64,000 nucleotides of DNA from Tannerella serpentiformis (GTDB lineage: Bacteria > Bacteroidota > Bacteroidia > Bacteroidales > Tannerellaceae): positions 2,728,001 through 2,792,000 of the forward strand of contig NZ_CP028365.1 in NCBI RefSeq assembly GCF_003033925.1, written 5' to 3'. Shown piece after piece: positions 1,469 to 55,337 of this stretch. The notes below the pieces were generated by a model that searched no databases, was not told the DNA's origin, and saw nothing but the letters and a program-made list of their open reading frames with translations. A program made the translations under genes and the position numbers. Numbering within the stretch: position 1 is the stretch's first letter; every line of letters starts with the position of its first letter.

Positions 1469-2001
1469 GGCGTCTCAATGGTCATTTGGGTCTCGTCCCG
1501 TGGCGGGACGGCGTCTCAATGGTCATTTGGGTCTCGTCCCGTGGCGGGACGGCGTCTCAATGGCCATTTTGGTCTCGTCATGCGGCATGATGGCGTCTCA
1601 ATGGCCATTTTGGTCTCATCCCGTGGCGGGATGGCGTCTCAACGGCCATTTTGGTCTCGTCATGCGGCATGATGGCGTCTCAATGGCCATTTTGGTCTCG
1701 TCATGCGACATGACGGCGTCTCAATGGCCATTTTGGCCTCGTCATGCGACATGACGGCGTCTCAATGGCCATTTTGGCCTCGTCATGCGGCATGATGGCG
1801 TCTCAACGGCCATTTTGGTCTCGTCATGCGACATGATGGCGTCTCAATGGCCATTTTGGCCTCGTCATGCGACATGATGGCGTCTCAATGGCCATTTTGG
1901 TCTCGTCATGCGGCATGATGGCGTCTCAATGGCCATTTTGGTCTCGTCATGCGGCATGACAGCGTCTCAATGGCCATTTTGGCCTCGTCATGCGACATGA
2001 T
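1469..2001. repeat. Tandem array A: 13 units of exactly 41 bp
   Basis: Units begin at 1469 and recur every 41 bp (1510, 1551, 1592 ... 1961). Each unit has two palindromes: AATGGCCATT (AATGGTCATT in the first two units) and a second with arms that vary between units. The second occurs as GTCCCG/CGGGAC, ATCCCG/CGGGAT, GTCATG/CATGAC and GTCATGC/GCATGAT, so both arms change together. The two palindrome centres are about half a unit apart. There is no unique spacer, so this is not a CRISPR. It lies between the adenosyltransferase stop and the promoter of the DUF2795 gene. Confidence 0.97.
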
Positions 2002-2056
2002 GACAGGGACGCATCCGGCATTTTTCGCTTTTCGTTTTCCATTCCTCGCTTATGGC

Positions 2057-2086
2057 TTGCAAGTGATTATATTAAGTCTACTTTTG
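2057..2086 (+). promoter_or_regulatory. Bacteroidetes-type promoter for the DUF2795 gene
   Basis: A TTGC element at 2057-2060 is followed after 18 bp by TACTTTTG at 2079-2086, matching the Bacteroidetes -33 TTG / -7 TAnnTTTG pattern. The start codon is at 2168. The promoter lies just downstream of array A. Confidence 0.55.
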
Positions 2087-2167
2087 CGCGCCTTTCACGT
2101 GGGGGCACTTCGCCTGCACGGAGAGAAGGATAAATGACAATCTAAACAGTATAAAAAAGGAGACTTC

Positions 2168-2389
2168 ATGTATTGGACATTAGAGTTGGCTTCCAAACTG
2201 GAAGATGCCCCTTGGCCTGCCTCCAAGGACGAGTTGATTGACTACGCGCAACGTTCCGGCGCCCCGCTCGAGGTGATCGAGAACCTGCAAGAAATGGAGG
2301 ATGAAGGCGAGGTCTACGAAAGCATAGAGGACATATGGCCGGATTACCCCAGTAAGGAAGATTTCTTCTTCAACGAAGAGGAATATTGA
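2168..2389 (+). CDS. Small acidic DUF2795 family protein
   Basis: This 73-residue, strongly acidic cytoplasmic protein begins MYWTLELASKLEDAPWPA and contains the conserved core PASKDELIDYAQRSGAPLEVIENL and the C-terminal IWPDYPSKEDFFFNEEEY. The sequence matches the short DUF2795 proteins conserved in most Bacteroidales, so I regard it as a real and highly conserved gene. Its function is unknown. An AAAAAGGAGA ribosome-binding site at 2154-2163 fixes the start. It is a single-gene unit with its own promoter and a strong terminator at 2408-2443. Confidence 0.88.
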   Translation: MYWTLELASKLEDAPWPASKDELIDYAQRSGAPLEVIENLQEMEDEGEVYESIEDIWPDYPSKEDFFFNEEEY

Positions 2390-2407
2390 AACCGAGAGAA
2401 AATGATG

Positions 2408-2443
2408 GAGCTGCAGGCCAATGCGCGCTTGCAGCTCTTTTTT
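2408..2443 (+). terminator. Rho-independent terminator after the DUF2795 gene
   Basis: GAGCTGCA (2408-2415) pairs with TGCAGCTC (2430-2437) and is followed by a T-run. Confidence 0.9.
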
Positions 2444-2515
2444 CGTTTGTTCGGATACAATTTTACCCGCCTGTGATGAGTTGTATTATACGCATCCCCC
2501 CCGTGTAGGTTGAGA

Positions 2516-3499
2516 ATGAAGAATTATCGTTTTTGGACACTCTGGCTTAACCTCCTGCTGTGTGCGACGGTCGTCGTGGCGCAGACGGACGCCCCGCTGA
2601 ACCATTATTTCACGGCCATGACGGCCTACAACCCCGCCGCGGTGGGAATGCAAAGCGAGATCAAGGCCACGGCCCTCTACCGCCTGCAATGGGTCGGGCT
2701 GGACGAGGGCGCACCCAAATCCATCTTCGTAGCTGCCGATATGCCTTATCGCTTCCGAGAGACGCAAAACGGCGTCGGCATCATCCTCTTCAACGACGAC
2801 AAAAGCACCCTCTATAAAGATATGTACGCCGCTGCGCAGCTGGCTCACAAGCGACGCCTCGGCAAGGGCACACTCAGCATCGGCCTGCAAGTGGGCATGA
2901 TTAATAGCACCTATCAAGGCTCCAAAGCGCGTCCCGTACCCGAAGGTGCGGACGGAAGTGCGGACCATGCGTCCGAGGACGACGCCATCCCTAAGGAAGA
3001 CCTTACGGCCAAGGGCCTCGACCTGGCCGCCGGAGTGATGTACTCCACCGACAGATACTACATCGGCCTGGCCTCGACCCATCTCACGGCCCCCACACTG
3101 CAGCTGAACGACAACTTCGGACGTAAGGTGATGCGCGAATACAATTTGATGGCAGGATACAATATCGCTCTGCGCAACCCGTTGGTGGAATTGCGTCCGT
3201 CGCTGCTGGTGCGGTCTGATCTGCACATGTCAGTCGGCGACGTGACCCTCAGAGCCATTTATAAGAAGATGTTCAACGGGGGGCTCGGCGTGCGTGTCAC
3301 GGACAGCGGTACGACAAATGGCATCCTCTATCTGGGCGCCGACATTGCCGGCTTTCGCGTCAGCTACGCGTATGAATATCCCTTTTCAGCGCTCTCCCGA
3401 ACGACCTTCGGCAGTCACGAAGCCGTCGTCACCTATCGCCTGCAGCTGAACCTGCCCAAGGGGGGGCGAAACAGGCACAAGAGCATCAGAATATTGTAA
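2516..3499 (+). CDS. porP: Type IX secretion system outer-membrane protein PorP (PorP/SprF family)
   Basis: This 327-residue protein has an N-terminal signal peptide (hydrophobic LWLNLLLCATVVVAQ, cleavage near VAQ-TDA), then the PorP/SprF core beginning LNHYFTAMTAYNPAAVGM and a series of amphipathic strands ending in a typical outer-membrane barrel (VSYAYEYPFSALSR...GSHEAVVTYRL). I chose the ATG at 2516 over the in-frame TTG at 2510 because it places a basic residue run directly before the hydrophobic core. The family forms an outer-membrane barrel that delivers or anchors T9SS cargo. It is the first gene of the porPKLMN operon, 27 bp before porK. Confidence 0.93.
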   Translation: MKNYRFWTLWLNLLLCATVVVAQTDAPLNHYFTAMTAYNPAAVGMQSEIKATALYRLQWVGLDEGAPKSIFVAADMPYRFRETQNGVGIILFNDDKSTLYKDMYAAAQLAHKRRLGKGTLSIGLQVGMINSTYQGSKARPVPEGADGSADHASEDDAIPKEDLTAKGLDLAAGVMYSTDRYYIGLASTHLTAPTLQLNDNFGRKVMREYNLMAGYNIALRNPLVELRPSLLVRSDLHMSVGDVTLRAIYKKMFNGGLGVRVTDSGTTNGILYLGADIAGFRVSYAYEYPFSALSRTTFGSHEAVVTYRLQLNLPKGGRNRHKSIRIL

Positions 3500-3526
3500 G
3501 ACAGAGAATATAGACACATAGAGACG

Positions 3527-4984
3527 ATGATAAAGAAGATAGCGATCATGGGCGTGGCGGCATGGCTGCTTACAGCGTGCGGGAAAATGCTTTCCGGTGA
3601 CGGTGGCGAACTGGTCGGCGCCAGAATGGCCTCCTACAACGAGCCGAGCCCTTACGGGATGGTGCTCATCAAACGCGGATCCTTTGAGATGGGACCTTCT
3701 GACAGAGACAGTTTGTGGGGATTCGAGCCGGATACGCGCGGCGTCTCGTTCGAATCTTTTTGGATGGACGAGACGGAAATCACCAACGCCCAGTATCGCC
3801 AATTCGTTTACTGGGTGCGCGACTCCATCATCCGCACCCGTCTGGCCGATCCAGCTTACGGCGGCAACGAGCTCTTTATGATCACCGAGGATAAGTTCGG
3901 AGACCCCGTCACACCGCACCTCGACTGGTCGCGCCCCATCCCCTGGAAGCGCGCTAACGAAGACGAGCGCCGCGCCATCGAGAGTGTCTACTACACGCAT
4001 CCCGTGACGGGCGATCGCAGTCTTGACGCCCGACAGATGAACTACAAATACGAATGGTTTGACTACACCGCCGCCGCGCTGCGTCGCAATCGCATCGATC
4101 CAGCCGAACGCGAGCGCAACACGGACTATCAAGTCGATCCGAACGAGGTGGTGATGATCTCCAAAGACACCGCCTTCTTCGACGCCGAAGGGCGCCCCGT
4201 CAATCAGACCATCACGCGCCCCCTCAGTAGCCCGTTCGACTTCCTCAATACGCGCATTGTCAATATCTACCCCGACGAGACGAGCTGGGTGAACGATTTC
4301 AAGAATGCCCATAACGAGCCGTATCTGAAGATGTATTTCACGCATCCGGGCTACGACGATTATCCCGTCGTGGGCGTATCGTGGGAGCAGGCCGAGGCCT
4401 TTTGCGTATGGCGTACGGAGTACTATAAGAAGTCGGCTAACCTGCCGCCGGGCACCGTGATCGAACCTTTCCGACTGCCGACTGAGGGCGAGTGGGAATA
4501 CGCTGCCCGTGCCGGCAAGAGTGAGAACAAATATCCCTGGTCGACCAACGAATTGCAGAACGCCAAGGGCTGCTTTATGGCCAACTTCAAGCCGGGCGAT
4601 GGCAACTACACCGAGGATGGTCACCTGATCACTTCACGCGTGGCCACCTTCGCCCCGAACGAGTTCGGACTCTATGACATGGCCGGCAACGTGGCCGAAT
4701 GGACCTCATCGGTCTACACCGAATCAGGCCTCAGTCAGACGAGCGATCTCAATCCTGACCTGCACTATCACGCCGCCAAAGAAGACCCCTACGAAATGAA
4801 GAAGAAGGTGGTCCGCGGTGGATCGTGGAAAGACGTAGCCGAGTTTATCCGTTCCGACCGTCGCACGTTTGAGTATCAGAACGAGACGCGCTCCTACATC
4901 GGCTTCCGCTGTGTTCGCACACAGGTCGGATTCTCCAATGCCAAAGGCAAGGGCAACAGCAACAAGAGCAAAAAGAAGAAGTAA
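3527..4984 (+). CDS. porK: T9SS outer-membrane ring lipoprotein PorK/GldK
   Basis: This 485-residue lipoprotein has lipobox LTAC with Cys18 as the lipidation site. The rest is a formylglycine-generating-enzyme (sulfatase-modifying) fold: the MVLIKRGSFEMG start of the domain near residue 46, the MDETEITNAQYRQFVYWV motif, GVSWEQAEAFCVWR, RLPTEGEWEYAARAG, and the C-terminal GLYDMAGNVAEWTSSVY...VVRGGSWKD...GFRCVR. In T9SS this fold is structural: PorK and PorN form large periplasmic rings under the outer membrane. The tail is Lys/Ser-rich. It is in an operon with porP and porL, 34 bp apart from the latter. Confidence 0.95.
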   Translation: MIKKIAIMGVAAWLLTACGKMLSGDGGELVGARMASYNEPSPYGMVLIKRGSFEMGPSDRDSLWGFEPDTRGVSFESFWMDETEITNAQYRQFVYWVRDSIIRTRLADPAYGGNELFMITEDKFGDPVTPHLDWSRPIPWKRANEDERRAIESVYYTHPVTGDRSLDARQMNYKYEWFDYTAAALRRNRIDPAERERNTDYQVDPNEVVMISKDTAFFDAEGRPVNQTITRPLSSPFDFLNTRIVNIYPDETSWVNDFKNAHNEPYLKMYFTHPGYDDYPVVGVSWEQAEAFCVWRTEYYKKSANLPPGTVIEPFRLPTEGEWEYAARAGKSENKYPWSTNELQNAKGCFMANFKPGDGNYTEDGHLITSRVATFAPNEFGLYDMAGNVAEWTSSVYTESGLSQTSDLNPDLHYHAAKEDPYEMKKKVVRGGSWKDVAEFIRSDRRTFEYQNETRSYIGFRCVRTQVGFSNAKGKGNSNKSKKKK

Positions 4985-5018
4985 ACACTTATCCCCCCTC
5001 CAATAATTAATCAGCGAT

Positions 5019-6176: not shown

Positions 6177-6213
6177 TAGTCGACGAACAGAGACCGATCT
6201 ACCCCACAGTATA

Positions 6214-7782: not shown

Positions 7783-7878
7783 GAGGGTAGTTAGAAGTAG
7801 TAAGAGGGTTGTTAGAAGTGGGCTTCAACGTCGCTCAAACAGATAAACGCATAAACAGATAAACAGATAAACGAAGAC
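7783..7878 (+). repeat. porM-porN intergenic short direct repeats
   Basis: The gap contains two imperfect copies of AGAGGGT(A/T)GTTAGAAGT at about 7783 and 7803, then CAGATAAAC repeated three times between 7840 and 7872 plus a CATAAAC variant. Effect on porN expression is unknown. It is the longest gap in the operon. Confidence 0.7.
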
Positions 7879-8988: not shown

Positions 8989-9015
8989 GGGCGTCTACGG
9001 ACGCCGGCGAATAGG

Positions 9016-9064: not shown

Positions 9065-9087
9065 AGCTGTTAGATTTTCGATGTACC

Positions 9088-9652
9088 GCGGTAGGGGCGT
9101 ATTGCATACGCCCCACGTGTACCCGGTCATCTGATCATTCGGCCCCGTTGGGCCGTGTAGTGGGGCGTATGCAATACGCCCCTACATGTACCCGGCAGGG
9201 GCCGTATGCAATACGCCCCACGTGTACCCGGTTACCTGATCATTCGGCCCTGTTGGGCCGTGTGGTGGGGCGTATGCAATACGCCCCTACATGTACCCGG
9301 CAGGGGCCGTATGCAATACGCCCCACATGTACCCGGTCACCTGATCATTCGGTCCCGTTGGGGCCGTGTGGTGGGGCGTATGCAATACGCCCCTACGTGT
9401 ACCCGGTCATCTGATCATTCGGCCCTGTTGGGCCGTGTAGTGGGGCCGTATGCAATACGCCCCACGTGTACCCGGCAGGGGGGCGTATGCAATACGCCCC
9501 CACGTGTACCCGGTCATCTGATCATTCGGCCCCGTTGGGCCCGTGTGGTGGGGCGTATGCAATACGCCCCACGTGTATCCGGTCATCTGATCATTCGGCC
9601 CCGTTGGGCCGTGTGGTGGGGCGTATGCAATACGCCCCTACCCGGTTCCCTG
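9088..9652. repeat. Composite palindrome array (GGGGCGTAT...ATACGCCCC family)
   Basis: The block holds about ten copies of a palindrome with arms GGGGCGTAT and ATACGCCCC around TGC or GCA, separated by ACGTGTACCCGG, CTGATCATTC and CGGCCCCGTTGGGCCG, which are themselves palindromic. Copies of TGATCATTC start at 9132, 9237, 9342, 9412, 9519 and 9588, giving spacings of about 105, 105, 70, 107 and 69 bp. The array is therefore built from a roughly 70-bp unit with optional insertion of a roughly 36-bp subunit. Single copies of the same palindrome occur at 22241, 49440 and 49511. It lies between porN and the 3' end of the DUF6261-like gene. Confidence 0.95.
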
Positions 9653-9657
9653 ACGCC

Positions 9658-10518
9658 TTATTCCTCCGGCAGCTTGATGTCGGGGTTGCCGTCGTCGGGT
9701 TTCTTCGGATCCTTGGGCGTGTCGGGCTGTTTGGGCTCTTTCGGATCCTTGGGAGTCTTCGGTTCCTTCGGTTCCTTCGGCTCTTTGGGCAGCTTGGGTT
9801 CCTTCGGCTCCTTGGGCTCCTTCTTCTTCGTCTCCGGACGCTCGGCCAGGAGGGCCTGCTGTATGTCCGCATTGATGCTGCTCATCAGACGTTTATAGGG
9901 CGCTTCGCCGCCGAGTGTGGCCAGTGCGTTGATCGTGTGGGCCAGGTGGCGATACTCATCGTCGAGGGCGATACGCTTCTCCTTGGTTTGGCCCACGAGA
10001 TCCATGTTGCGCTGCGTACGGGCGTTGTAGGCGGCTTCAAATTTCTTGTTCGCGTCCTTGAGCTCGTCCAGCCATTTGTCGGCACCGATAAGCGTCAGTT
10101 TGGCCTTCGCGTCGGCCACCTCCAAGTCGCTGACGACGTTGGAGACGATGGCCGTTTCTTCGCGTAGGGGCTTCGTTTGCGGCGCCTTGTCGTACTTCAG
10201 CAGGATGGCCTGTAGCTGTTGCGCGGCCGTCGCCTTGGCCTCCTCGGGGAAGCCGGTGAAGACGCGCACGTGTCCGTAAAGCCCTATCAGGGCCTTGTCG
10301 CGTCGCTCGTCGAGCTTGTTCAGCTCTTTCGTGTCCACATCGCCACGCATGGGTTGCACGGCCGCGTCGAAAGTCTTGTACTTCTCATCGAAGACCTTGG
10401 CCGCGTCTTTCAGCTTCAGCGTCTCCAGATCTTCCTGAGAGAGGAACAGTTGCACATTCGTCATCACCTGATAGAAATTCATCAGGCGGAGCTTGGTGAG
10501 ATTGAAGTAAAGTATCAT
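9658..10518 (-). CDS. DUF6261-like protein with Lys/Pro tail ending NPDIKLPEE (paralogue 1)
   Basis: The product is 286 residues if it starts at the ATG at 10518 (MILYFNLTKLRL); an in-frame ATG further upstream at 10581 is possible but gives no better context. No signal peptide or membrane segment is visible. Residues 1-225 are predicted helical (NVQLFLSQEDLETLKLKD..., KALIGLYGHVRVF...) and resemble DUF6261 proteins of Bacteroidetes, of unknown function. Residues 228-286 are a low-complexity tail of KEPKEPK-type repeats ending DDGNPDIKLPEE. The last 19 residues are identical to those of the paralogue at 48515-49420. Array B begins 65 bp upstream of the start and the palindrome block lies directly downstream. 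Confidence 0.82.
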   Translation of the reverse strand: MILYFNLTKLRLMNFYQVMTNVQLFLSQEDLETLKLKDAAKVFDEKYKTFDAAVQPMRGDVDTKELNKLDERRDKALIGLYGHVRVFTGFPEEAKATAAQQLQAILLKYDKAPQTKPLREETAIVSNVVSDLEVADAKAKLTLIGADKWLDELKDANKKFEAAYNARTQRNMDLVGQTKEKRIALDDEYRHLAHTINALATLGGEAPYKRLMSSINADIQQALLAERPETKKKEPKEPKEPKLPKEPKEPKEPKTPKDPKEPKQPDTPKDPKKPDDGNPDIKLPEE

Positions 10519-10582
10519 TTCTGTAAAATTTAGAGTGTAATCCTGTAATTGTAGTAAGCAATACGCCCAACTGACATCCATT

Positions 10583-10816
10583 GAAGGCGTTTCCTTGAGT
10601 AATTTTCACCGACGGACTTCTTTTGGAGGAATTTCCTTGAGTAATTTTCACCGACGACTCTCTTTTGGAGGAATTTCTCCGAGTAAATTCGCCCAAAAGC
10701 ATTCGGTTGGAGGAATTTCTCCGAGTAAATTCGTTCAAAAGCATTCGGTCGGAGGAGTTTCTCCGAAGAAATTCGTTCAAAAGCATTCGGTTGGAGGAAT
10801 TTCTCCGAAGAAACGC
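10583..10816. repeat. Tandem array B: about 5.5 units of 42 bp
   Basis: Units start at 10583, 10625, 10667, 10709, 10751 and 10793 (partial). Each contains GGAGGAATTTCTCC, which is self-complementary with one G-T pair, and a CGA(A/G)-NAAA-TTCG mini-hairpin. It lies immediately 5' of DUF6261-like paralogue 1, which is read leftward. Confidence 0.95.
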
Positions 10817-20430: not shown

Positions 20431-21420
20431 CTATTCTTCCGGCAGATGGATGTCCGGATTGCCACCTTCGCCGCCGCCCGCCTCGGGCTGTTTGGGCTTC
20501 TCGCCGCCTCCGGGCGTGCCACCCCCTTCCGGTTTTTTCGGCTGATCCGGCTTTTTCGGCTCCTCCGTTTCCGGTAGACGAATGTCCGGATCCTTGTTAT
20601 CCTTTTCCGGCTTTTTCGGTTTCGGTTCCTTGGGCTTTTTCGGCTCTTTCGGGGCGTTCGGATTCTGCTTCCGCTTCTCGGCAGCCGCCTTTTTGATGGC
20701 CTGACCTTGTTTATAAGACGCGTAAATATCTTCTGCGCGCTCGTTAAAACGTGCAATCAGCTTGGCGATCAGTTCCGGCTCGATGGGGGTTGTCCCATAC
20801 ACATATTTATATTGTAGCACGAGCAGGATACGCTCAAAAATGGCATCCGTACGGTTACGCACGGCTGGCATTTTAGGCAATTTATTATCCGCGCGCTTCT
20901 TCGCCCGATCGCTATTGATCGAATCAAACTCTTTGTTGAGCGTCTCCAGCTTCGTAACATCCGAAGTAAATCCCAGCTTGGACACGTCGGCGGCGTTTTC
21001 TGTCTTTTTGAGGTCGGTAAGCAGGCCGTCTACATGCGACGTTACTCGATCAAACGACTCTTTCCGGATCCCAACGTAGGGATTCATGACAACATTTAGA
21101 CGCATGGCAGCATCCGATTTTTCTTTGTCCGGAGAGAGCAGTCCGTTGCGCACGACACCGAAAATATACTTCAGCAGGCGGTCGCGCTCTTCGTTCTTCT
21201 TGACTAAGAGTTCCGAATTGACGCTCGCTTGAGCCTCCAAATTATTTTCCTTCTCCGTGTCAATGCTCTCTTTCCACTCGTTCTTCAGTTCTTCCGGAAT
21301 ACCGAGCTTCGGGAGGTCAAATTCAATGACGAAGCCGTACATCGAATCATGATATTTCACATGCAAGGCATTATCCAATTTGGATGTACCTATTCTTTTG
21401 ATTTCTAATCCGTCTTTCAT
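20431..21420 (-). CDS. DUF6261-like protein with Lys/Pro tail ending NPDIHLPEE (paralogue 2)
   Basis: The product is 329 residues, without a signal peptide. Residues 1-250 are mostly helical, with little obvious identity to the other two copies beyond general character (DRVTSHVDGLLTDLKK, NRTDAIFERILLVLQYKYVYG). From about residue 251 the tail becomes Lys/Pro-rich (PKEPKKPKEPK), then Gly-rich, and contains two versions of the terminal motif: DPDIRLPE in mid-tail and NPDIHLPEE at the very end. Array C begins about 70 bp upstream. No palindrome cassette is present downstream, unlike copies 1 and 3. Function is unknown. Confidence 0.8.
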   Translation of the reverse strand: MKDGLEIKRIGTSKLDNALHVKYHDSMYGFVIEFDLPKLGIPEELKNEWKESIDTEKENNLEAQASVNSELLVKKNEERDRLLKYIFGVVRNGLLSPDKEKSDAAMRLNVVMNPYVGIRKESFDRVTSHVDGLLTDLKKTENAADVSKLGFTSDVTKLETLNKEFDSINSDRAKKRADNKLPKMPAVRNRTDAIFERILLVLQYKYVYGTTPIEPELIAKLIARFNERAEDIYASYKQGQAIKKAAAEKRKQNPNAPKEPKKPKEPKPKKPEKDNKDPDIRLPETEEPKKPDQPKKPEGGGTPGGGEKPKQPEAGGGEGGNPDIHLPEE

Positions 21421-21489: not shown

Positions 21490-21893
21490 ACTTTTTGTGG
21501 AGATTCTCCTCCGTAGCCTCCGATTGGTGCTTTCCGTTGTGGGGAGGACCCTCCGTAGCCTCCGATTGGTACTTTCCGTTGTGGGGAGGACCCTCCGTAG
21601 CCTCCGATTGGTACTTTCCGTTGTGAAAAGTCCCTTTCGTAGCCTCCGATTGGTGTTCTCCATCGCGAGAAGTCCCTTTTGTAGCCTCCGATGGGTGCTC
21701 TCCATCGCGAGAAGTCCCTTTTGTAGCCTCCGATTGGTGTTCTCCATCGCGAAAAGCCCCTTTCGTAGCCTCCGATTGGTGTTCTCCATCGCGAGAAGTC
21801 CCTTTCGTAGCCTCCGATGGGTGTTCTCCATCGCGAGAAGTCCCTTTCGTAGCCTCCGATGGGTGTTCTCCATCGCGAGAAGTCCCTTCCCGA
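21490..21893. repeat. Tandem array C: about 9.5 units of 42 bp
   Basis: GTAGCCTCC recurs every 42 bp at 21513, 21555, 21597, 21639, 21681, 21723, 21765, 21807 and 21849. The variable half of each unit keeps pairing potential although the sequence changes: TTCTC/GAGAA in the later units and ACTTT/AAAGT in one of the earlier ones. It lies 5' of DUF6261-like paralogue 2 and, at a distance, of the divergent GH97 gene. Confidence 0.95.
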
Positions 21894-31077: not shown

Positions 31078-31366
31078 GAATCGGAAACGTTTCGGCTCAT
31101 TGTATCGTACAATCGCGAGAAATGAAACCGTTTCGGCCGATTGTATCGTACAATCACGAGAAATGAAATCGTTTCGGCCGATTGTATCGTACAATCACGA
31201 GAAATGAAATCGTTTCGGCCGATTGTATCGTACAATCACGAGAAATGAAATCGTTTCGGCCGATTGTATCGTACAATCACGAGAAATGAAATCGTTTCGG
31301 CCGATTGTATCGTACAATCACGAGAAATGAAATCGTTTCGGCCGATTGTATCGTACAATCGCTAAA
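31078..31366. repeat. Tandem array D: 7 units of exactly 41 bp
   Basis: Units start at 31078, 31119, 31160, 31201, 31242, 31283 and 31324. Each has the perfect hairpin GATTGTA-TCG-TACAATC and a smaller GAAA...TTTC palindrome (GAAACGTTTC in the first unit). The array precedes the cinA promoter. Confidence 0.97.
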
Positions 31367-34583: not shown

Positions 34584-35582
34584 ATGGAAAATTTCCCCGG
34601 AAAGATTGCCATCATGGGCGGCGGAAGCTGGGCCACGGCGTTGGCCAAGATTGTGCTCTCGAACCAGCCGGAGATGAATTGGTACATGCGTCGGCAGGAG
34701 GTCATCGAGGAGTTCAAGCAGACGAAGCACAACCCCTCGTACCTCTCCGCCGTGACGTTCGACACGGAGCGCATCCATTTCTCGACCGACATTAACGAGA
34801 TCGTCGACCGCTCCGACCTGCTCATCTTCGCCACCCCATCGCCCTTCTTCAAGAACCACCTGAAGCAGCTCCGCGTGCCTCTGCGCGATAAGACGATCCT
34901 CTCGGCCATCAAGGGCCTCGTGCCGGACGAGAACATGCTCATCACGGACTATCTGGCCGAGTGTTACCAAGTGCCTCTGGATCGATTGGCCGTCATCGCC
35001 GGGCCGTGCCACGCTGAGGAGGTGGCCCTCGGGCGCCTCTCGTACCTCACGCTGGCCTGCAAAGACCTCGATCGCGCGCGGGCCCTCGCCCCGATTTTCA
35101 CGAACGACTTTATGCGCACCTCCTGCAGCCGCGATGTCCGCGGCATGGAGTACGCCTCGGTGCTGAAGAATATCTATGCCATTGTGGCCGGTATCTGCCA
35201 CGGCATGAAGTACGGCGACAACTTTCAGGCGGTCTTCATCTCGAATGCCATCAAGGAGATGCAGCGCTTCCTCGGCTCGGCCCACACGCTGCCGCGCGAC
35301 ATTTCCGACTCGGCCTACCTGGGCGACCTGCTCGTGACGGCCTACTCGCGATACAGCCGCAACCGCACCTTCGGCTCCATGATCGGCAAGGGCTACTCTG
35401 TCAAAACGGCACAACTGGAGATGGAGATGATCGCCGAGGGGTACTACGGCGCCAAGTGCATCTACGAGATCAATGAGCGCTATCAAGTCGATATGCCCAT
35501 CCTCGACACCCTGTACGCCATCCTCTACGAGCGCCAGTCGCCCCCGGCCGTCATCCGTCGCATGACAGAAACATTCAAGTAG
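34584..35582 (+). CDS. gpsA: NAD(P)-dependent glycerol-3-phosphate dehydrogenase
   Basis: The 332-residue enzyme reduces dihydroxyacetone phosphate to sn-glycerol 3-phosphate for phospholipid synthesis. It shows the Rossmann motif IAIMGGGSWATALAKI, LIFATPSPFFKNHL, AIKGLVPDENMLITDYL, IAGPCHAEEVALGRLSYLT, and the catalytic-lysine region ASVLKNIYAIVAGICHGMKYGDN. The ATG at 34584 follows an A-rich leader. The final nine codons and the downstream sequence are duplicated in tandem (see 35552-35821). It is located between lysS and pgi. Confidence 0.96.
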   Translation: MENFPGKIAIMGGGSWATALAKIVLSNQPEMNWYMRRQEVIEEFKQTKHNPSYLSAVTFDTERIHFSTDINEIVDRSDLLIFATPSPFFKNHLKQLRVPLRDKTILSAIKGLVPDENMLITDYLAECYQVPLDRLAVIAGPCHAEEVALGRLSYLTLACKDLDRARALAPIFTNDFMRTSCSRDVRGMEYASVLKNIYAIVAGICHGMKYGDNFQAVFISNAIKEMQRFLGSAHTLPRDISDSAYLGDLLVTAYSRYSRNRTFGSMIGKGYSVKTAQLEMEMIAEGYYGAKCIYEINERYQVDMPILDTLYAILYERQSPPAVIRRMTETFK

Positions 35583-35821
35583 AACGAAAAACGAAAAGCT
35601 AAAAATGGCCGGATACTTGGCATACTTCTGCTGGCGGCCGCAGCCCCCCCTGTTTTTCACTTTTAGTTTTTCGCTTCTGAGTTCCCCATCCGTCGCATGA
35701 CAGAAACATTCAAGTAGAACGAAAAACGAAAAGCTAAAAATGGCCGGATACTTGGCATACTTCCGCTGGCGGCCGCAGCCCCCCATGTTTTTCACTTTTA
35801 GTTTTTCGCTTCTGAGTTCCC
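35552..35821 (+). repeat. 135-bp tandem duplication spanning the gpsA stop codon
   Basis: The segment from CATCCGTCGCATGACAGAAA (35552) through the stop codon and the following hairpin-rich 3' region is repeated at 35687. The second copy therefore contains a silent copy of the last nine gpsA codons. The copies are nearly identical; visible differences include CTTCTG versus CTTCCG and one base in a C-run. After the second copy, further TTTTAGTTTTT stretches lead to the pgi start. Confidence 0.95.
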
Positions 35822-35856
35822 CCATTTTAGTTTTTCATTTTTAGTTTTTAGCTCCC

Positions 35857-37206
35857 ATGAACCCTCTTCAATTAGACTTCACCAAAGCCTTCGGCCCAGC
35901 GGCCGATGAGCGCCTCGAGGCCATCCGCCCAGAGGCCGAAAAGAGTCTCCGAACCCTTTATGAAGGCACCGGCGCCGGCAACGACTTCCTCGGCTGGCTC
36001 CACCTGCCCAGTTCCATTACCGACACGCAGCTGACCGACATCGAGCAGACGGCTGAGAGGCTGCGCGCCTGCCAAGCTGTCGTAGTGATCGGCATCGGTG
36101 GCAGCTACCTCGGCGCACGCGCCGTGATCGAAGCCCTCACGGACAGCTTCGACGCGCTCCGTACCGGCGCCGACCGCACGCACCCCGTCATCCTCTACGC
36201 CGGCAACCAGATCGGCGAGGATTACCTCAGCGAGCTTTGCGACCTGCTCCGTGGACGCGACTTCGGCATCATCAACATCTCCAAATCCGGCACCACGACC
36301 GAGCCAGCCATCGCTTTCCGCATCCTCCGCAGCCTGCTCGAGGAGAACGTCGGCGCCGCGGCCGCTAAGGAGCGCATCGTGGCCGTGACCGACCGTGCCC
36401 GGGGCGCCCTCCGCACGCTGGCTGACCGCGAGGGATACAAGACCTACGTCATCCCGGACGACGTCGGCGGACGATACTCCGTCCTCACGCCCGTCGGGCT
36501 GCTGCCCATCGCCGTGGCCGGCATCGACATCCGCGCCCTCGTCCGTGGCGCCGTCGAGATGGAGCGCGCCGTCGGCCCCGACGTGCCCTTCGACCGTAAC
36601 CCCGCCCTGCGCTACGCCGCCGCCCGCCAAGCGCTCTATCGCGAGGGCAAGAAGATCGAGATCCTAGCCAATTTCCACCCCAAGCTGCACTACGTGGGCG
36701 AGTGGTGGAAGCAGCTCTACGGCGAGAGCGAGGGCAAGGACCACCGCGGCCTCTTCCCCGCCGCTGTCGACCTCACCACCGACCTCCACTCTATGGGCCA
36801 GTGGATCCAGCAGGGCGAGCGGACGATCTTCGAGACGGTCGTTTCGATCGACTCCCCCGAGCGCACGCTCTCCGTCCCCACGGACGCTGACAACCTCGAC
36901 GGGCTGAACTACCTGGCCGGCCGCCGCGTGGACGAGATCAACAAGATGGCCGAGCTCGGCACCCGCCTGGCCCACGCTTCCGGTGGCGTGCCCAACATCC
37001 GCGTCTCCATCCCGCGCCTCACCGCCGACCACCTCGGTCGCCTGCTCTACTTCTTTGAGGCCGCCTGCGGCATCAGCGGCTACCTCTCCGGCGTCAACCC
37101 CTTCGATCAGCCCGGCGTGGAGGCCTACAAAAGCAATATGTTCGCCCTGCTCGACAAGCCCGGCTTCGAGGCCGAGAGTCGTGCCATCCGTGCGCAGCTG
37201 GGGTGA
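35857..37206 (+). CDS. pgi: Glucose-6-phosphate isomerase
   Basis: The 449-residue protein is the short bacterial (Bacillus-like) form of PGI, which interconverts glucose 6-phosphate and fructose 6-phosphate. Signatures are [20 protein letters not shown] (phosphate-binding loop), [55 protein letters not shown] and the C-terminal [17 protein letters not shown] with the catalytic lysine. It has normal length. It starts only 36 bp after the gpsA duplication and is followed directly by array E. Confidence 0.97.
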
Positions 37207-37208
37207 TA

Positions 37209-37515
37209 CTCAAAACCCGGTTTTAGGCGCGTTGCACGTTCTGCAATGTCCCAAAACCGGGTTGTAGACGAATTGCACGTTCTGCAATGTCCCAAAACCG
37301 GGTTGTAGACGCGTTGCAGGCTCTGCAATGTCCCAAAACCGGGTTTTAGACGCGTTGCAGGGTCTGCAATGTCCCAAAACCGGGTTGTAGACGAATTGCA
37401 GGCTCTGCAATCCTCCAGAATCAGATTCTGAGCGATTGCAACGGTCTGTAAAGCCCCGGAATCAGATTCTGAGCGATTACAACGGTCTGCAAAGCCCCAG
37501 AATCAGATTCTGAAG
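37209..37515. repeat. Tandem array E: about 7.5 units of 41 bp in two covarying subtypes
   Basis: Unit starts (TTGCA) are at 37232, 37273, 37314, 37355, 37396, then about 37436 and 37477. The first palindrome is TTGCA-CGTTC-TGCAA (TTGCA/TGTAA with a wobble pair later). The second is AAAACC-G-GGTTTT in the first units and AGAATC-A-GATTCT in the last units: a complete change of sequence with the palindrome kept. The palindrome centres are about 20 bp apart. It lies between pgi and ettA. Confidence 0.97.
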
Positions 37516-42459: not shown

Positions 42460-42480
42460 GAGTAGTCCAACCACAGGCCA

Positions 42481-43110
42481 TGATAGCCCCGGCGACAGTG
42501 TCGCCAGCGTTACCACACCCTATGATAGCCTCGGCGACAGTGTCGCCAGCGTTACCACAGGCCATGATAGCCTCGGCGACAGTGTCGCCAGCGTTACCAC
42601 AGGCCATGATAGCCCCGGCGACAGTGTCGCCAGCGTTACCACACCCCATGATAGCCCCGGCGACAGTGTCGCCAGCATCACCACACCCCATGATAGCCCC
42701 GGCGACAGTGTCGCCAGCATGACCACACCCCATGATAGCCCCGGCGACAGTGTCGCCAGCGTTACCACACCCCATGATAGCCCCGGCGACAGTGTCGCCA
42801 GCGTTACCACACCCCATGATAGCCCCGGCGACAGTGTCGCCAGCGTTACCATAGACCATGATAGCCTCGGCGACAGTGTCGCCAGCGTTACCACAGACCA
42901 TGATAGCCCCGGCAGAATGTCTGCCAGCACCACCACACCCCATGATAGCCCCGGCAGAATGTCTGCCAGCACCACCACACCCCATGGTAGCCCCGGCAGA
43001 ATGTCTGCCGGCATGACCACACCCCATGATAGCCTCGGCAGAATGTCTGCCAGCACCACCACACCCCATGATGGCCCCGGCAGAATGTCTGCCGACACGA
43101 CCACAGACCA
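42481..43110. repeat. Tandem array F: 15 units of exactly 42 bp in two covarying subtypes
   Basis: TGATAGCC (TGGTAGCC or TGATGGCC in single units) recurs every 42 bp from 42481 to 43069. Units 1-10 carry GGCGACA-G-TGTCGCC; units 11-15 carry GGCAGA-ATG-TCTGCC at the same place. Both are perfect palindromes with different arms. In the first subtype, pairing extends imperfectly over about 35 bp of the unit. Because 42 is divisible by three, long open frames run through it, but these are artefacts. It lies between the clpC terminator and the second susC promoter. Confidence 0.97.
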
Positions 43111-48123: not shown

Positions 48124-48147
48124 TCGAAGAGCCGATCGCTAAGAACG

Positions 48148-48190: not shown

Positions 48191-48225
48191 CATTTCTTTG
48201 CCGCCGCTCCGGGCGGAGGCTCGGA

Positions 48226-48487
48226 AATACACAGCGACGGGCTGTCGCAAAATTTGCAACGCTCAAAACACACTTCGACAGGCCGTCGCAGATTAGGAAA
48301 GCTCCGTCGAACACTTCGACAGGCTGTCGCAGATTAGGAAAGCTCCGTCGAACACTTCGACGGGCTGTCGCAGATTAGGAAAGCTCCGTCGAACACTTCG
48401 AGGGGCCGTCGCAGATTAGGAAAGCTCCGTCGAACACTTCGACGGGCTGTTGCAGATTTGAAACACGCTGTCGAACACTTCGACAGA
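48226..48487. repeat. Tandem array G: about 6.4 units of 41 bp
   Basis: Units start at 48226, 48267, 48308, 48349, 48390, 48431 and 48472 (partial). Each has two hairpins: TCGAA-CAC-TTCGA and CGACAG-G-CTGTCG. Variants CGACGG/CTGTCG and CGACAG/CCGTCG keep most pairs through G-T. The last partial unit ends 25-30 bp before the DUF6261-like start codon. Confidence 0.97.
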
Positions 48488-48514
48488 ATGACAACGACAT
48501 TAACTTATAAAGAG

Positions 48515-49420
48515 ATGAAAGCAATCAAGACAATTAATGGAACGTGGGGAGGACGCTTCCCACTCGGACTGCACGCCAATTTGCAGTCTACCCTTTACAC
48601 CCTGATCCATCCGATCACACCGGCTAAACTGCTGCTCGAGGCGTCGGACATCGACACTTGGAACGGCGGTATCCTCGAGGAAATGGAAATCGATCGCGAA
48701 GCCAAAAAGGCCGAAGAGACGGCCCTCCTCCGTGAGAAAGACGACACGCGCGACGAGATCCTCTGGGCCCTGATCCAAGAGACACGCCTGGCCGCCAAGT
48801 CGCCCATCAAAGAAAACCGTGCTCCTGGCGCCCGCTTGCTGATCGTGCTCAACACCTACAAAGACATCATCCGCGAGAACTACGCCTCCGAAACGGCTCA
48901 CATCAAGGCCCTGCTCAAGGACCTCGACAAGCCCGCCGCCGTGGCCGACCTGACTACGATCGGGCAGACCCGACTGGTGCAAATGCTTCGCACGGCCAAT
49001 GAGGAGTTCGACAGCCTCTACCTCAAGCGCCTCGACTTTGACGCTGGCATCAAGAAGTTGCCCTCCAGCGCCTCGGTGCGTCAGAAGAACGACAAGATGA
49101 CAGCCACCATCTTCCGTCACATCGAGACGGCTTACATGATGGCCACCTCAGACGACGACCGCAAGCTGATCGGCGACCTCATCGACCGCATCAACGCCGC
49201 CATTAACAAGACGAAGAACGTCTACAACACCTCTGGCAAGAGGAAAGAAGACGGCGAGCCGAAGCAGCCCAAGGAACCCAAGGAGCCTAAGCAGCCGAAG
49301 GATCCCAAGCCTACGCCCGACCCGAAACAACCGGAGCAGCCGAAGAAGCCGGACGAGAAGCCGAAGGATCCGAAGAAACCCGACGACGGTAATCCAGACA
49401 TCAAGCTGCCGGAAGAATAA
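48515..49420 (+). CDS. DUF6261-like protein with Lys/Pro tail ending NPDIKLPEE (paralogue 3)
   Basis: The product is 301 residues from ATG 48515 (MKAIKTINGTWGG). Upstream in-frame starts at 48488 (ATG) and 48458 (TTG) lie inside array G and are less likely. The product lacks a signal peptide and is mostly helical (RAPGARLLIVLNTYKDIIRE, DDRKLIGDLIDRINAAINKT). Residues 242-301 are the Lys/Pro tail (PKQPKEPKEPKQPKDPK...) ending DDGNPDIKLPEE, identical over the last 19 residues to paralogue 1. The 3' flank (GGCGTCCGGTAACCGGGTAG plus palindrome) matches the 3' flank of paralogue 1. Function is unknown. Confidence 0.82.
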   Translation: MKAIKTINGTWGGRFPLGLHANLQSTLYTLIHPITPAKLLLEASDIDTWNGGILEEMEIDREAKKAEETALLREKDDTRDEILWALIQETRLAAKSPIKENRAPGARLLIVLNTYKDIIRENYASETAHIKALLKDLDKPAAVADLTTIGQTRLVQMLRTANEEFDSLYLKRLDFDAGIKKLPSSASVRQKNDKMTATIFRHIETAYMMATSDDDRKLIGDLIDRINAAINKTKNVYNTSGKRKEDGEPKQPKEPKEPKQPKDPKPTPDPKQPEQPKKPDEKPKDPKKPDDGNPDIKLPEE

Positions 49421-49554
49421 GGCGTCCGGTAACCGGGTAGGGGCGTATTGCATACGCCCTACCACACGGACCCGAAAGGGGCCGAATGATCCGACAACCG
49501 GGTACATGTGGGGCGTATGCAATACGCCCCTACCGCCTGCCGGAGGAATAAGGG
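49421..49554 (+). repeat. Palindrome cassette after paralogue 3, ending in a second copy of the gene's 3' end
   Basis: Palindromes with arms GGGGCGTAT/ATACGCCC(C) occur at 49440-49459 and 49511-49531, joined by CCACACGGACCC and CCGAATGATC sequence like that in 9088-9652. At 49538-49554 CTGCCGGAGGAATAAGG repeats the LPEE-stop end of the DUF6261-like genes without the rest of the gene. Confidence 0.85.
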
Positions 49555-49566
49555 TAACCTAAACGC

Positions 49567-49606
49567 AAAAATGCCGGACACCCCCCAGTGGGTGCCCGGC
49601 ATTTTT
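49567..49606 (+). terminator. Terminator before the ketoacyl synthase gene
   Basis: AAAAATGCCGGACACC pairs with GGGTGCCCGGCATTTTT (one bulge). Confidence 0.88.
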
Positions 49607-49644
49607 GTATCCGTGCGCACAGCGGCTCCCAGCAAAAGCAGACC

Positions 49645-49652
49645 TACTTTTG
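49645..49652 (+). promoter_or_regulatory. -7 promoter box for the ketoacyl synthase gene
   Basis: TACTTTTG matches TAnnTTTG, 22 bp before the ATG at 49675. Confidence 0.55.
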
Positions 49653-49674
49653 CCCCCCTACATATATAGATCCT

Positions 49675-50910: not shown

Positions 50911-51029
50911 AAAGTGAAAAGTGCCCCGACCCTCCTTCTAACTACTGCGGCTTTAGCCGCATAACTACCCGGGGCGGGCACAAGGCCCGCCCCTACTACC
51001 GCGCCGAAGGCGCATAACTACCCCTATTC
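50911..51029. repeat. Short hairpins between the ketoacyl synthase and oxidoreductase genes
   Basis: TGCGGCTTTAGCCGCA, GGGGCGGGC-ACAAG-GCCCGCCCC and GCGCCGAAGGCGC hairpins are separated by CATAACTAC repeats. The last one recurs as GCGCCGCAAGGCGC near 52640. Confidence 0.75.
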
Positions 51030-52523: not shown

Positions 52524-52560
52524 GGGTACCCGGCCAACTTGGCCGGCGCCCCGCTCGCAC

Positions 52561-52610
52561 CTTGACTTTCTTTTCGTCCCTTTTCTTGTGTCAAGACAGG
52601 AACAGGAGGC
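52561..52610 (+). repeat. REP-like pyrimidine-rich element (third copy)
   Basis: CTTGAC (52561-52566) and GTCAAG (52590-52595) flank TTTCTTTTCGTCCCTTTTCT. It belongs to the same family as the inverted pair at 22108-22347. Confidence 0.6.
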
Positions 52611-52672
52611 GAACAAGAGAAGAGTATCCACTAACCACCGCGCCGCAAGGCGCATAATAACTACCTGCAACA

Positions 52673-53501
52673 ATGAACCTTTTCCGCATCGCCCGGCAGG
52701 CACTCGCCCTCGTCCTGCTTGTGGCCGTCACCGAGCGAGGGCTTGCTCAAGCTGACACCGCCGACCGCTACACCCAAACGCGCACCATCGGCGACGGCGT
52801 CACCGTCACCTGGATCCGCGACAACGCCGCCGACCACACCATGGCCCGCAGCCTGTTCGTCGACACCCCGGACAGCGTCATGGCGCGCCTCGGCCTGACC
52901 GACGGCGTGCCCGCCACCATCAGCACCTTCCTCGTCGAGACCGGCGGCCGGATCATCCTCTTCGACACCGGCTACGGCTTCCCCGACAGCCGACGCGCTG
53001 CGTCGCCTCGGGCACGACCCGTCCGAGATCGACCTCGTCTACCTCACCCACTTCCACCGCGACCACATCGGCGGACTGATGCACGGCGACACGGCAGCCT
53101 TCCCCCACGCCGAGGTCTACGCCTCGCGCCCGGAGTATGACGCCTGGATGGCCATGCCGCCCGACCGGAACGCACAGCAGGTGAAGACCATGAACGCCTA
53201 CCGCGACCGCCTGCATCTCTTTGCCTTCGGCGACACGTTGCCCGGCGGCGTCCTCACCATCGATGCCGTCGGTCACACGCCCGGCCACACTGCCTATCGC
53301 GTCGGCCGGCTGCTCATCATCGGCGACCTGATCCACGGCGCCGCCCTGCAACTCGAGCGCCCGGAGTACAGCACGTCCTACGACATGGACCGACCCGCCG
53401 CCGCCCGCACCCGTCGTCGCATCCTCGACTATGCCCGCCGCGAGGGACTCGTCATGGCCGGTATGCACCTGCCCCCGCCCGCCCTCCTGCCCTCCCGGTG
53501 A
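52673..53501 (+). pseudogene. Exported metallo-beta-lactamase-fold hydrolase, frameshifted
   Basis: The gene starts with a signal peptide (LALVLLVAVTERGLAQA) and proceeds through ISTFLVETGGRIILFDTGYGFPDS. Near 52985-52995 the frame changes: the continuation LRRLGHDPSEIDLVYLTHFHRDHIGGL, with the HxHxDH zinc motif, is in another frame, followed by MHGDTAAFPHAEVYASRPEY, GHTPGHTAYRVG and IIGDLIHGAAL to the stop at 53501. All metal-binding motifs are intact, so one inserted base (or two deleted) is the only visible lesion. It is either a recent pseudogene or a sequencing error. The likely ancestral product is a periplasmic MBL-fold hydrolase of about 275 residues. Confidence 0.85.
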
Positions 53502-53562
53502 TCTCCCCCCCGGGGGAGGGCGCACCAGAAGCGGCCTCTCTTTGCGGATATTAAAATCAGGG

Positions 53563-53570
53563 TACTTTTA
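53563..53570 (+). promoter_or_regulatory. -7 promoter box for glyA
   Basis: TACTTTTA differs from TAnnTTTG only at the last base and lies 69 bp before the glyA ATG. Confidence 0.4.
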
Positions 53571-53638
53571 CGCCCCGTTAAAGAATCAATAATCACTATT
53601 CAAGTCACGTAAGACGTAATCGTAAACAGAGTATTTCT

Positions 53639-54919
53639 ATGAGAAGAGACAAAGCAATCTTCGAGATTATCGAACGCGAACATCAGCGTCAGCTGAAAGG
53701 TATTGAGCTGATCGCTTCAGAGAATTTTGTCAGCGACGAGGTCATGCAGGCCATGGGCAGTTGCCTGACGAACAAGTATGCCGAAGGATACCCCGGCAAG
53801 CGCTACTATGGCGGTTGCGAGGTGGTGGACGAGAGCGAAACGCTGGCCATTGAGCGGCTGAAGAAGCTCTTCGGCGCCGAATGGGTCAACGTGCAGCCGC
53901 ACTCCGGCGCACAGGCTAACGCTGCCGTCTTCCTGGCGGTGCTCAACGCTGGCGACACCTTCCTCGGCCTTAACCTCTCGCACGGCGGACACCTCTCGCA
54001 CGGTTCGCCCGTCAACAGCTCGGGCATCCTCTACCACGCCCTGGAGTACAACGTGAAGGAGGAGACGGGCCGCGTGGACTACGACCAGATGGAAGAAGTG
54101 GCCCTCCGCGAGCGTCCGAAACTGATCGTCGGCGGCGCCTCGGCCTACTCCCGCGACTGGGACTACAAGCGCATGCGTGAGATCGCCGACAAGATCGGCG
54201 CCCTGCTCATGATCGACATGGCACACCCCGCCGGACTCGTCGCTGCCGGACTGCTCAACAATCCGCTTCAGTACGCCCACATCGTCACCTCTACGACCCA
54301 CAAAACCCTGCGCGGACCGCGCGGTGGCGTCATCCTTTTAGGTAAGGACTTCGACAACCCGTGGGGCAAGAAGACGCCGAAAGGCGAGGTGAAGAAGATG
54401 TCGCAGCTGCTCGACTCGGCCGTCTTCCCCGGCATTCAGGGCGGACCGCTGGAGCACGTCATTGCCGCCAAGGCCGTGGCCTTCGAGGAGGCGCTGCAGC
54501 CCGAATACAAGACCTACCAGACGCAGGTGAAGAAGAACGCCGCCGTCATGGCCCAGGCCTTCGTCGACAAGGGTTACAAGATCATCTCCGGCGGAACGGA
54601 CAACCACAGCATGCTCATCGACCTGCGCACGAAGTTCCCCGACCTCACCGGTAAGGTGGCCGAAAAGGCGCTCGTGGCCGCGGACATCACGGTGAACAAG
54701 AACATGGTGCCTTTCGACAGCCGTTCGCCGTTCCAGACCTCCGGTATCCGTATCGGTACCCCGGCCATCACCACCCGCGGCGCTAAGGAGTCGCTCATGG
54801 GTGAGATTGTCGAGATGATCGACACGGTGCTCTCCAAACCGACGTGCGACACCACCATCGCCTCCGTTCGCGAGAAGGTGAACCACACGATGAAGGAGTA
54901 CCCCATTTTCGCTTGGTAA
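53639..54919 (+). CDS. glyA: Serine hydroxymethyltransferase
   Basis: The 426-residue PLP enzyme converts serine and tetrahydrofolate to glycine and 5,10-methylene-tetrahydrofolate in the cytoplasm. Motifs are the N-terminal [18 protein letters not shown], the [17 protein letters not shown] loop, [11 protein letters not shown], the PLP-lysine sequence [14 protein letters not shown] with K222, and VNKNMVPFD...[15 protein letters not shown]. It has normal length. It is a single-gene unit with its own promoter and a strong terminator. Confidence 0.97.
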
Positions 54920-54964
54920 ACAGATCTCCCCGAGAGGGGTACTATTTTTAGCTTAGCTCATGTT

Positions 54965-55003
54965 GGCATGCTTCCCGCGTTTGTCGGGAGGCATGCCTTT
55001 TTT
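54965..55003 (+). terminator. Terminator after glyA
   Basis: GGCATGC-TTCCCG and CGGGA-GGCATGCC pair over a short loop and run into TTTTTT. Confidence 0.92.
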
Positions 55004-55007
55004 GAGG

Positions 55008-55337
55008 GTGACTCTGCGGCGAAACCGTCCGGGAACGGTCCGGAAACAGTGATTCTGCGGTGAAACCGTTCGGGAACGATCCAGAAACCGTGATTCTGCG
55101 GTGAAACCGTTCGGGAACGGTCCAGAAACCGTGATTCTACGGCGAAACCGTTCGGGAATGGTTTAGAAACCGTGTTTCTGCGGTGAAACCGTCCGGTAAC
55201 GATCCAGAAACCGTGATTCTACGGCGAAACCGTTCGGGAATGGTCTGGAAACAGTGATTCTGGAGCGAAACCGTTCGGGAATGGTCTGGAAACATTGATT
55301 CTGGGGCGAAACCGTTCGGGAACGGTTCGGAAACCGA
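55008..55337. repeat. Tandem array H: 8 units of exactly 41 bp
   Basis: Units start at 55008 and every 41 bp to 55295. The main palindrome is ACCGTTC-GG-GAACGGT (GAATGGT in several units, kept by a G-T pair). A second one, CAGAA...TTCTG, bridges unit borders. Their centres are about half a unit apart. It lies between the glyA terminator and the promoter of the GT2 gene. Confidence 0.97.

Follow-up and report, generated by a model that had tools for sequence, protein, structure and literature searches.

Tandem arrays of 41/42-bp units pair with DUF6261 genes in Tannerella serpentiformis and other Bacteroidota

The 64,000-nucleotide stretch of the Tannerella serpentiformis genome considered here (the window, that is, positions 2,728,001-2,792,000 of NZ_CP028365.1, the one contig of 3,013,500 bases that makes up the genome) carries eight tandem arrays of 41- or 42-bp units, three of which (B, C and G below) adjoin genes for DUF6261 (PF19775), a family with 55 genes in this genome. 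Such arrays pair with DUF6261 genes and favour their upstream side, and their units keep a fixed length, are enriched in dyad symmetry and are copied from locus to locus. We tentatively propose, as a plausible reading that we would not yet call probable, that arrays and DUF6261 are the two parts of a hitherto undescribed Bacteroidota system. The array would then be a promoter-proximal DNA element read by its geometry and DUF6261 the first candidate for its reader.

The pairing is evident from the position of the arrays. With the first ATG taken as the start codon, an array ends no more than 300 bp upstream of the start, or overlaps it, at 40 of the 55 DUF6261 genes, against 63 of 303 open reading frames (ORFs) of at least 130 aa, DUF6261 genes included, found by a naive ORF caller in a sample of the genome (Fisher p 1.5e-13). 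This sample, on which the genome-wide figures below are based, joins the window to 20 stretches of 20 kb taken at even intervals and totals 464 kb, or 15% of the genome. Downstream arrays are seen at only nine of the 55 genes in the loci fetched, all within 375 bp. The motif TAnnTTTG, a -7 promoter consensus, occurs 27 times in the 400 bp upstream of the 55 genes (8.0 times in mononucleotide shuffles) and is found at -30 to -58 in 12 of them; 11 of these 12 have an array, which in all 11 ends upstream of the box (with a gap of more than 600 bp in three). Neither this association nor the array families that recur from locus to locus had been noticed in the first-pass annotation of the window, a reading of the letters alone whose interpretation is overall partly supported.

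That annotation had suggested a genome-wide scan of repeat periods as a possible refutation; run on the 464-kb sample, the scan favours the original observation, 41 and 42 together exceeding 40 and 43 by more than 10:1. When lags are defined by the nearest recurrence of exact 14-mers, there are 99 runs at 41 and 155 at 42, nine each at 40 and 43, and at most three at every other lag from 15 to 60. The same picture emerges from Tandem Repeats Finder (TRF), whose non-redundant arrays with a score of at least 150 number three at period 40, 17 at 41, 20 at 42 and one at 43, accompanied by multiples (13 arrays at 84, five at 123, three each at 126 and 168, two each at 252 and 294) and by one or two arrays at each of several unrelated periods (7, 23, 62, 77, 89, 105, 135 and others). 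With a looser mask, 83 arrays make up 5.4% of the sample. A unit that is always 41 or 42 bp was nevertheless too strict a claim, since this is the predominant length but relatives of array D have 40-bp units. Because 41 bp is not an integral number of codons, coding cannot set the unit length in general, and the arrays are indeed mostly intergenic, as first described: 51 of 70 placeable arrays lie between called ORFs and 19 inside an ORF of at least 130 aa (naive caller), some of which look truly coding, whereas others are probably false ORFs.

The second hallmark of the units, dyad symmetry, had been claimed for every one of them; it is enriched, but about half of the units have no strong dyad. 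A perfect palindrome with a stem of at least 6 bp is present in 55 of 114 consensus units (38-45 bp, own genome), compared with 8.5% of dinucleotide shuffles and 8.5% of random genomic 42-mers. The reported half-unit distance between dyad centres is borne out in the 28 units with exactly two quasi-dyads, where the spacing has its mode at 20-21 bp and is at least 18 bp in 18 (64%, against 14% in shuffles). Moreover, stems change in pairs: across 49 arrays (322 copies), 25 of 28 stem cells altered on both sides are complementary again, against 30 of 131 doubly altered cells in a control with the partner slid by 1-3 bp. The paired changes represent 17 distinct events in 11 arrays, and template switching at palindromes can also yield them. 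On the sense strand of DUF6261-linked arrays, stem mismatches comprise 15 G.T and 25 A.C, and the inner dyad pair is complementary in 13 of 28 odd and eight of 13 even families (25% expected); the lack of a G.U excess, together with symmetry that reaches into the dyad centre, points to DNA rather than RNA. Stems of at least 6 bp are also found in 38 of 82 units from other genomes, orthologous arrays being counted apart (shuffles: mean 6.8, at most 15 in 300), and the excess is strong at DUF6261 loci of the same genus (74% versus 9%). In one genome of the genus (G016, stretches L178-L187) the spacings are 21, 42 and 63 bp instead of 41/42 only, so that the base unit there may be one 21-bp dyad, while one 63-bp case (L182:11365-11548) may consist of coding repeats.

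Unit length and symmetry are kept while the sequence is free. Clustering by blastn of 147 arrays from the own genome (a set enriched by the manner of its retrieval, part of the D family having been drawn in by an earlier search) yields 93 groups, 57 of them single arrays. Family members are copied mostly without their surroundings: among 69 family pairs more than 8 kb apart, a flank match extending more than 60 bp past the array edge is found for neither member in 52, for one in eight and for both in nine, some of these nine being recent segmental duplications. Strong sharing of an array between DUF6261 paralogues is confined to pairs at least 98% identical, with one weak match at 43%. A further comparison is between two sister species (genomes G014 and G223) with seven orthologous DUF6261 pairs. 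In five of these, the best-matching upstream DNA is 88-100% identical, and in the other two (96% and 93% identical) unrelated arrays occupy the same place: L265 (41 bp) faces L266 (41 bp), the leader being different too, and L344 (42 bp) faces L337 (41 bp), about 95 bp of leader being conserved. The L337 and L344 families have several further loci in both sister species and none in the six other genomes of the genus that were searched, and the L265 family has two more loci in G014 and is weaker in G223 and the own genome. As far as can be judged from sequence comparison, whole arrays appear to be exchanged as units with their length kept. The idea of a constrained length and symmetry with unconstrained sequence has thus gained ground, both from the recurrence of 41/42 in other genomes and from the two loci whose whole array was apparently swapped.

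A locus after the PGI gene deserves mention here. In the own genome (window 37206-37515) and in G001 it holds an array without DUF6261, and in G014 and G223 a DUF6261 gene plus array (comparison loci L059:1719-2014, L140 and L333). Gain or loss of DUF6261 at an array slot is a possible explanation, and array E as the relic of a lost DUF6261 gene is only suggestive.

The pairing extends well beyond T. serpentiformis. DUF6261 occurs, own genome included, in 25 of 31 genomes of the genus, 20 of 198 of the order and 12 of 395 in a draw from the phylum (11 above the curated cut-off); loci outside the own genome were chosen from the listed DUF6261 matches, best first, and are therefore non-random. 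In same-genus metagenome-assembled genomes (MAGs), an upstream array is seen at 20 of 26 DUF6261 genes with at least 300 bp upstream, three further genes having too little upstream DNA. In seven genomes from other families of the order, the count is 30 of 38 (G213 15/18, G204 4/7, G047 5/5, G129 3/3, G098 1/2, G082 1/2 and G059 1/1), and all upstream repeats listed there (TRF score at least 70) have a period of 40-42 or a multiple. In the phylum draw, nine of 17 genes have a repeat of 41, 42 or 84 bp within 1 kb: five of 11 in other orders of the class (G533 4/5, G239 1/3, none in G502, G607 and G437), four of five in a second class (G570 2/2, G609 1/1, G297 1/2) and none at the one further gene of the own order (G077). 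TRF listed no other repeat period in the 17 kb upstream of these 17 genes. Binomial values for G213, G047 and the phylum draw assume background rates of 0.10, 0.02 and 0.01, respectively. The units inspected in these genomes are unlike each other, as seven units from four of them illustrate.

Related genomes, whose period scan had also been suggested at first pass, therefore show the 41/42 period again, and its abundance follows the gene family. Arrays at lag 40-43 per 100 kb (N runs and simple repeats masked; samples of 54-464 kb, mostly MAGs) amount to 16.6 in the own genome, 6.5 in G213, 4.2 in G016, 3.1 in G014, 1.2 in G223, 1.0 in G047 and 0 in G082, and no such array is found in 268 kb from four DUF6261-free genomes (G033, G039, G224 and G018). 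Where DUF6261 is abundant, arrays built alike are also scattered over other sites of the genome, most of them intergenic. Over 11 genomes, array density and DUF6261 number (a lower bound for G213) give a Spearman coefficient of 0.95. G123 was left out (0.9 per 100 kb), its sample including two DUF6261 loci; its sole array (L198:14309-14521) ends about 250 bp before a DUF6261 domain. Four contigs of the G223 MAG (C1, C3, C9 and C83) have their first base 100-260 bp ahead of a DUF6261 start codon, which looks as though the assembly of short reads had halted at the arrays; arrays are thus likely undercounted in MAGs. A separate set of PGI loci from other Bacteroidota (L066-L138 without L067, 1.31 Mb), in which DUF6261 was not found, has seven segments at lag 40-43, 18 at 20-22 and 19 at 44-46, the latter two outnumbering the other lags tested and hinting at a weaker 22/44 pattern elsewhere and a possible second two-turn ruler.

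Within the window, TRF finds all eight arrays at about the positions first given, with period 41 in A, D, E, G and H and 42 in B, C and F. These arrays and the DUF6261 genes beside them are as follows.

1469..2002, array A: 41-bp unit, 13 copies, dyad around TCATGCGGCATGA; relative at genome 58636-58944
9658..10581, minus strand, DUF6261 gene beside array B (Pfam PF19775, E 2.6e-35)
10583..10816, array B: 42-bp unit; touches the upstream side of the DUF6261 gene
20431..21420, minus strand, DUF6261 gene beside array C, tail end DIHLPEE (Pfam E 8.9e-37)
21490..21893, array C: 42-bp unit; 70 bp upstream of the DUF6261 gene
31078..31366, array D: 41-bp unit, dyad GATTGTATCGTACAATC
37209..37515, array E: 41-bp unit, two dyads per unit; begins 3 bp past the stop of the PGI gene
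42470..43110, array F: 42-bp unit, dyad GGCGACAGTGTCGCC, in later copies GGCAGAATGTCTGCC instead
48226..48487, array G: 41-bp unit; runs up to the ATG of the DUF6261 gene
48488..49420, plus strand, DUF6261 gene beside array G, tail end DIKLPEE (Pfam E 1.4e-31 for 48458-49417)
55008..55337, array H: 41-bp unit, dyad ACCGTTCGGGAACGGT; relative at genome 1850292-1850625

The eight arrays were said to have no sequence in common, which is true among themselves but not of the genome at large, where A, B, D, E, F and H each have at least one relative; C and G have none within the genome DNA fetched. The D family has eight further arrays in the DNA fetched, one of them upstream of the DUF6261 gene at 2233418, and relatives of E and F lie upstream of DUF6261 genes at 2972624 and 773814, respectively. 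The start of the gene at 9658..10581 is uncertain (10581 or 10518), and its product has a lysine/proline (K/P)-rich linker and the tail end DIKLPEE. By profile search, genes of the window include SusC/SusD-like, PorP/SprF and GldN, which are a mark of Bacteroidota. Other repeats are present as well. Two tandem copies of a 135-bp sequence, 98% identical, stand ahead of the PGI gene (window 35552-35822). A dispersed palindrome (GGGGCGTATGCAATACGCCCC and variants), distinct from the 41/42 arrays, forms mosaic arrays with periods of about 105, 172, 252 and 294 bp at window 9081-9641 and also at L045:18481-19091, L046:18846-20000, L047:12573-15312 and L056:12190-12697, where it is flanked by 42-bp arrays. 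Short repeats whose unit either has 7 bp and resembles TAGAGGG or its complement, or is a mixture of this with 23 bp, recur at L039:2180-2266, L041:14711-14837, L045:6944-7122 and L003:757-828.

As for the protein, the first 240 residues of the DUF6261 product of 20431..21420 are modelled as all-helical (mean predicted local distance difference test score, pLDDT, 83.5), and no signal peptide is recognised by eye. Neither is any known enzyme domain, the Pfam match being PF19775 only and those in NCBIfam, PHROGs and PADLOC weak. Many of the 55 proteins have a low-complexity K/P-rich linker, coded by 9-bp-based repeats (in the window at 9703-9822 and 49256-49309), and after it a conserved C-terminal tip PDI.LPEE, which in the looser form [DE]I.LP[EKT][EN] is present in 37 of the 55 and is reminiscent of the tip of single-stranded DNA-binding protein (SSB). 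The three DUF6261 tails seen in G129 end in DIIL, DIIL and GIVL.

How could these elements work together? The array might be a cis-acting DNA element beside the core promoter, recognised by its geometry (unit length, and dyads on one helix face) rather than by its base sequence. Recognition would fall to a protein assembly, with DUF6261 as the first candidate and acting back on its own gene, and array copies elsewhere would extend the reach of this protein to further genes or parts of the chromosome. That an array can be wholly different beside a nearly unchanged protein makes a code of sequence-specific matches between protein and array unlikely, and recognition of geometry, with dyads spaced by about two turns of the helix, becomes the simplest reading. 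The DNA-binding array imagined in the first-pass annotation fits the 20-21 bp dyad spacing and the absent G.U preference, although binding of the arrays by DUF6261 is something that we infer. A bolder version, possible but rather speculative in our view, is that this is a widespread Bacteroidota system with geometry-only reading and free sequence, in which arrays are exchanged like cassettes and DUF6261 readers build a chromosome-wide network from their own promoters.

A number of observations weigh against the two-part system. Fifteen of the 55 own DUF6261 genes have no array within 300 bp, nor do eight of the 17 most distant ones within 1 kb, and most arrays lie away from DUF6261 (only 41 of 147 adjoin it, in a retrieval-enriched set). 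About half of the own units lack a strong dyad, as counted above, and outside the genus dyads exceed shuffles only weakly (16% versus 6.5% in G213, 27% versus 8.5% in other families). Three other own genes (L015, L217 and L221) have promoter-like boxes within the array or on its upstream side. Array families do not appear to be reserved for one paralogue each, pairs of a DUF-linked and another array matching at 6.0 per 1000 and other pairs at 6.9, and a paralogue pair at 73% protein identity already has unrelated arrays. The exchange itself must be viewed with caution, as L266, L337 and L344 sit at contig starts with two to three copies only, which affects both exchanged G223 arrays and makes misassembly a possibility. 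Finally, the DUF6261 core is near neutral rather than basic (median pI 6.6), and its model has no clear match to any DNA-binding fold. A private operator, that is, one array family per paralogue, was also considered, as some families contain a single DUF-linked array beside others; it was not demonstrated by the same rates or by label permutation on 13-mer links (0.48), the rate test being compatible with it.

Several other explanations account for part of these data. That the arrays are a mobile, self-copying satellite, with DUF6261 as helper or carrier and a unit length set by the copying machinery, is unlikely but deserves serious attention. RAYT transposases sit among REP (repetitive extragenic palindromic) sequences, palindromes tagged GTAG or CGTC which they are thought to spread, and a satellite of this kind would account for copying mostly without flanks (52 of 69 family pairs), for two array families that two sister species carry at several loci and six other members of the genus lack, and for an array density that tracks DUF6261 number. 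However, DUF6261 is all-helical without a recognised enzyme domain, and the preference for the upstream side (40 of 55, against nine of 55 downstream) suits regulation better. The only Y1 transposase found in the genome (1380004-1380351, locus L037) adjoins a DUF6261 gene without array; it was rejected as a mobiliser, being a single gene with no 41/42 array in its 3.5-kb locus. Neutral satellite evolution would need no length reader at all, as an ancient 42-bp array would have spread with DUF6261 and drifted in sequence through mutation and local homogenisation, unit length persisting because out-of-phase units cannot be homogenised. Higher-order periods of 84, 126 and 168 are just what homogenising satellites predict, and the D family displays a one-base drift of unit length. 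We nevertheless regard this as decidedly unlikely, because two orthologous genes with 93% and 96% identity have unrelated 41/42 arrays (with the contig-end caveat), dyads are enriched, half-unit spaced and restored by paired changes (which template switching could also restore), and the period, judged by its length, is seen again ahead of DUF6261 genes in a second class.

The remaining two explanations are centred on gene expression. Copy number could tune or phase-vary that of DUF6261, as in promoter variable-number tandem repeats (VNTRs), which would agree with arrays upstream of the start codon and with a large paralogue family; we give this little credence, since a variable spacer leaves the arrays away from DUF6261, the fixed 41/42 unit and the dyads unexplained. 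An action as RNA, with hairpins in 5' leaders or terminators, looks very improbable; an RNA fold had been among the options named in the first-pass annotation. Although RNA folding is conceivable for the palindromes, most of which lie between genes, the stems show no excess of G.U over A.C, symmetry at the dyad centre exceeds what a loop needs, and where a -7-like box is near the DUF6261 start, in most genes that can be judged, the array ends upstream of it. Besides, Rfam has no family at gathering thresholds over the window arrays, its only match in the window being a tRNA.

In the open-licence literature, judged by titles and the starts of abstracts, no publication was found on a 41/42-bp rule or on the function of DUF6261, a family named in PMC10376253, in the part of that article available to us. 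A constant length with free sequence, kept together with one gene family across many families and two classes of the phylum, implies a reader or maker of DNA that goes by length and symmetry, and through the pairing a curious repeat pattern becomes a gene-DNA system open to direct tests. The pairing would provide a first lead on the function of a family with 55 copies in one genome, and a bacterial case for array homogenisation, exchange and sequence-free recognition.

Comparison with known systems is instructive. Plasmid iterons and partition centromere repeats are tandem, with near-constant helical spacing and a replicon-specific sequence, and lie near the gene of their binder. The likeness is an array beside the gene of a presumed binder, whereas the arrays described here are chromosomal (83 in 464 kb), have a 41/42-bp unit with dyads and are apparently swapped without change of protein; no iteron Rep initiator gene was recognised beside the window repeats, the three DUF6261 genes matching only PF19775 in Pfam. 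CRISPR arrays, which also stand beside a gene family and have partly palindromic repeats, contain unique spacers of similar length, but the eight window arrays are uninterrupted head-to-tail units. Bacterial minisatellites of the VNTR and MIRU (mycobacterial interspersed repetitive unit) kind are intergenic, with units of tens of bases and a spread of lengths, whereas here one length dominates and a gene family is attached.

Closer in appearance are REP/RAYT systems, in which, according to the parts of these reports available to us, palindromic repeats in high number are tied to one gene family (PMC2817692, PMC3116915 and PMC3733652). This likeness is offset by head-to-tail arrays, free sequence and fixed length, and a Y1 HUH transposase flanked by palindromes is absent from the genome searched, the one Y1_Tnp match (at 1380004) having no array in L037. 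BrickBuilt, a miniature inverted-repeat transposable element (MITE) of Porphyromonas gingivalis, likewise consists of intergenic tandem repeats with predicted stem loops in the same phylum and, in the portion of its description available, has a 23-nt unit, a leader, a tail, IS5-like terminal repeats and 19 copies (PMC4596501). The units considered here are 41/42 bp with many sequences, and 52 of 69 family pairs share no flank beyond 60 bp. The defining features of CRISPR arrays, BrickBuilt, RAYT and iteron replicons that were tested are thus lacking. The feature that would define the system proposed here (a repeat with a period of 40-43 bp, or a multiple, upstream of DUF6261) is present at 40 of 55 genes in the own genome, 20 of 26 in the genus, 30 of 38 in other families and nine of 17 in the phylum draw.

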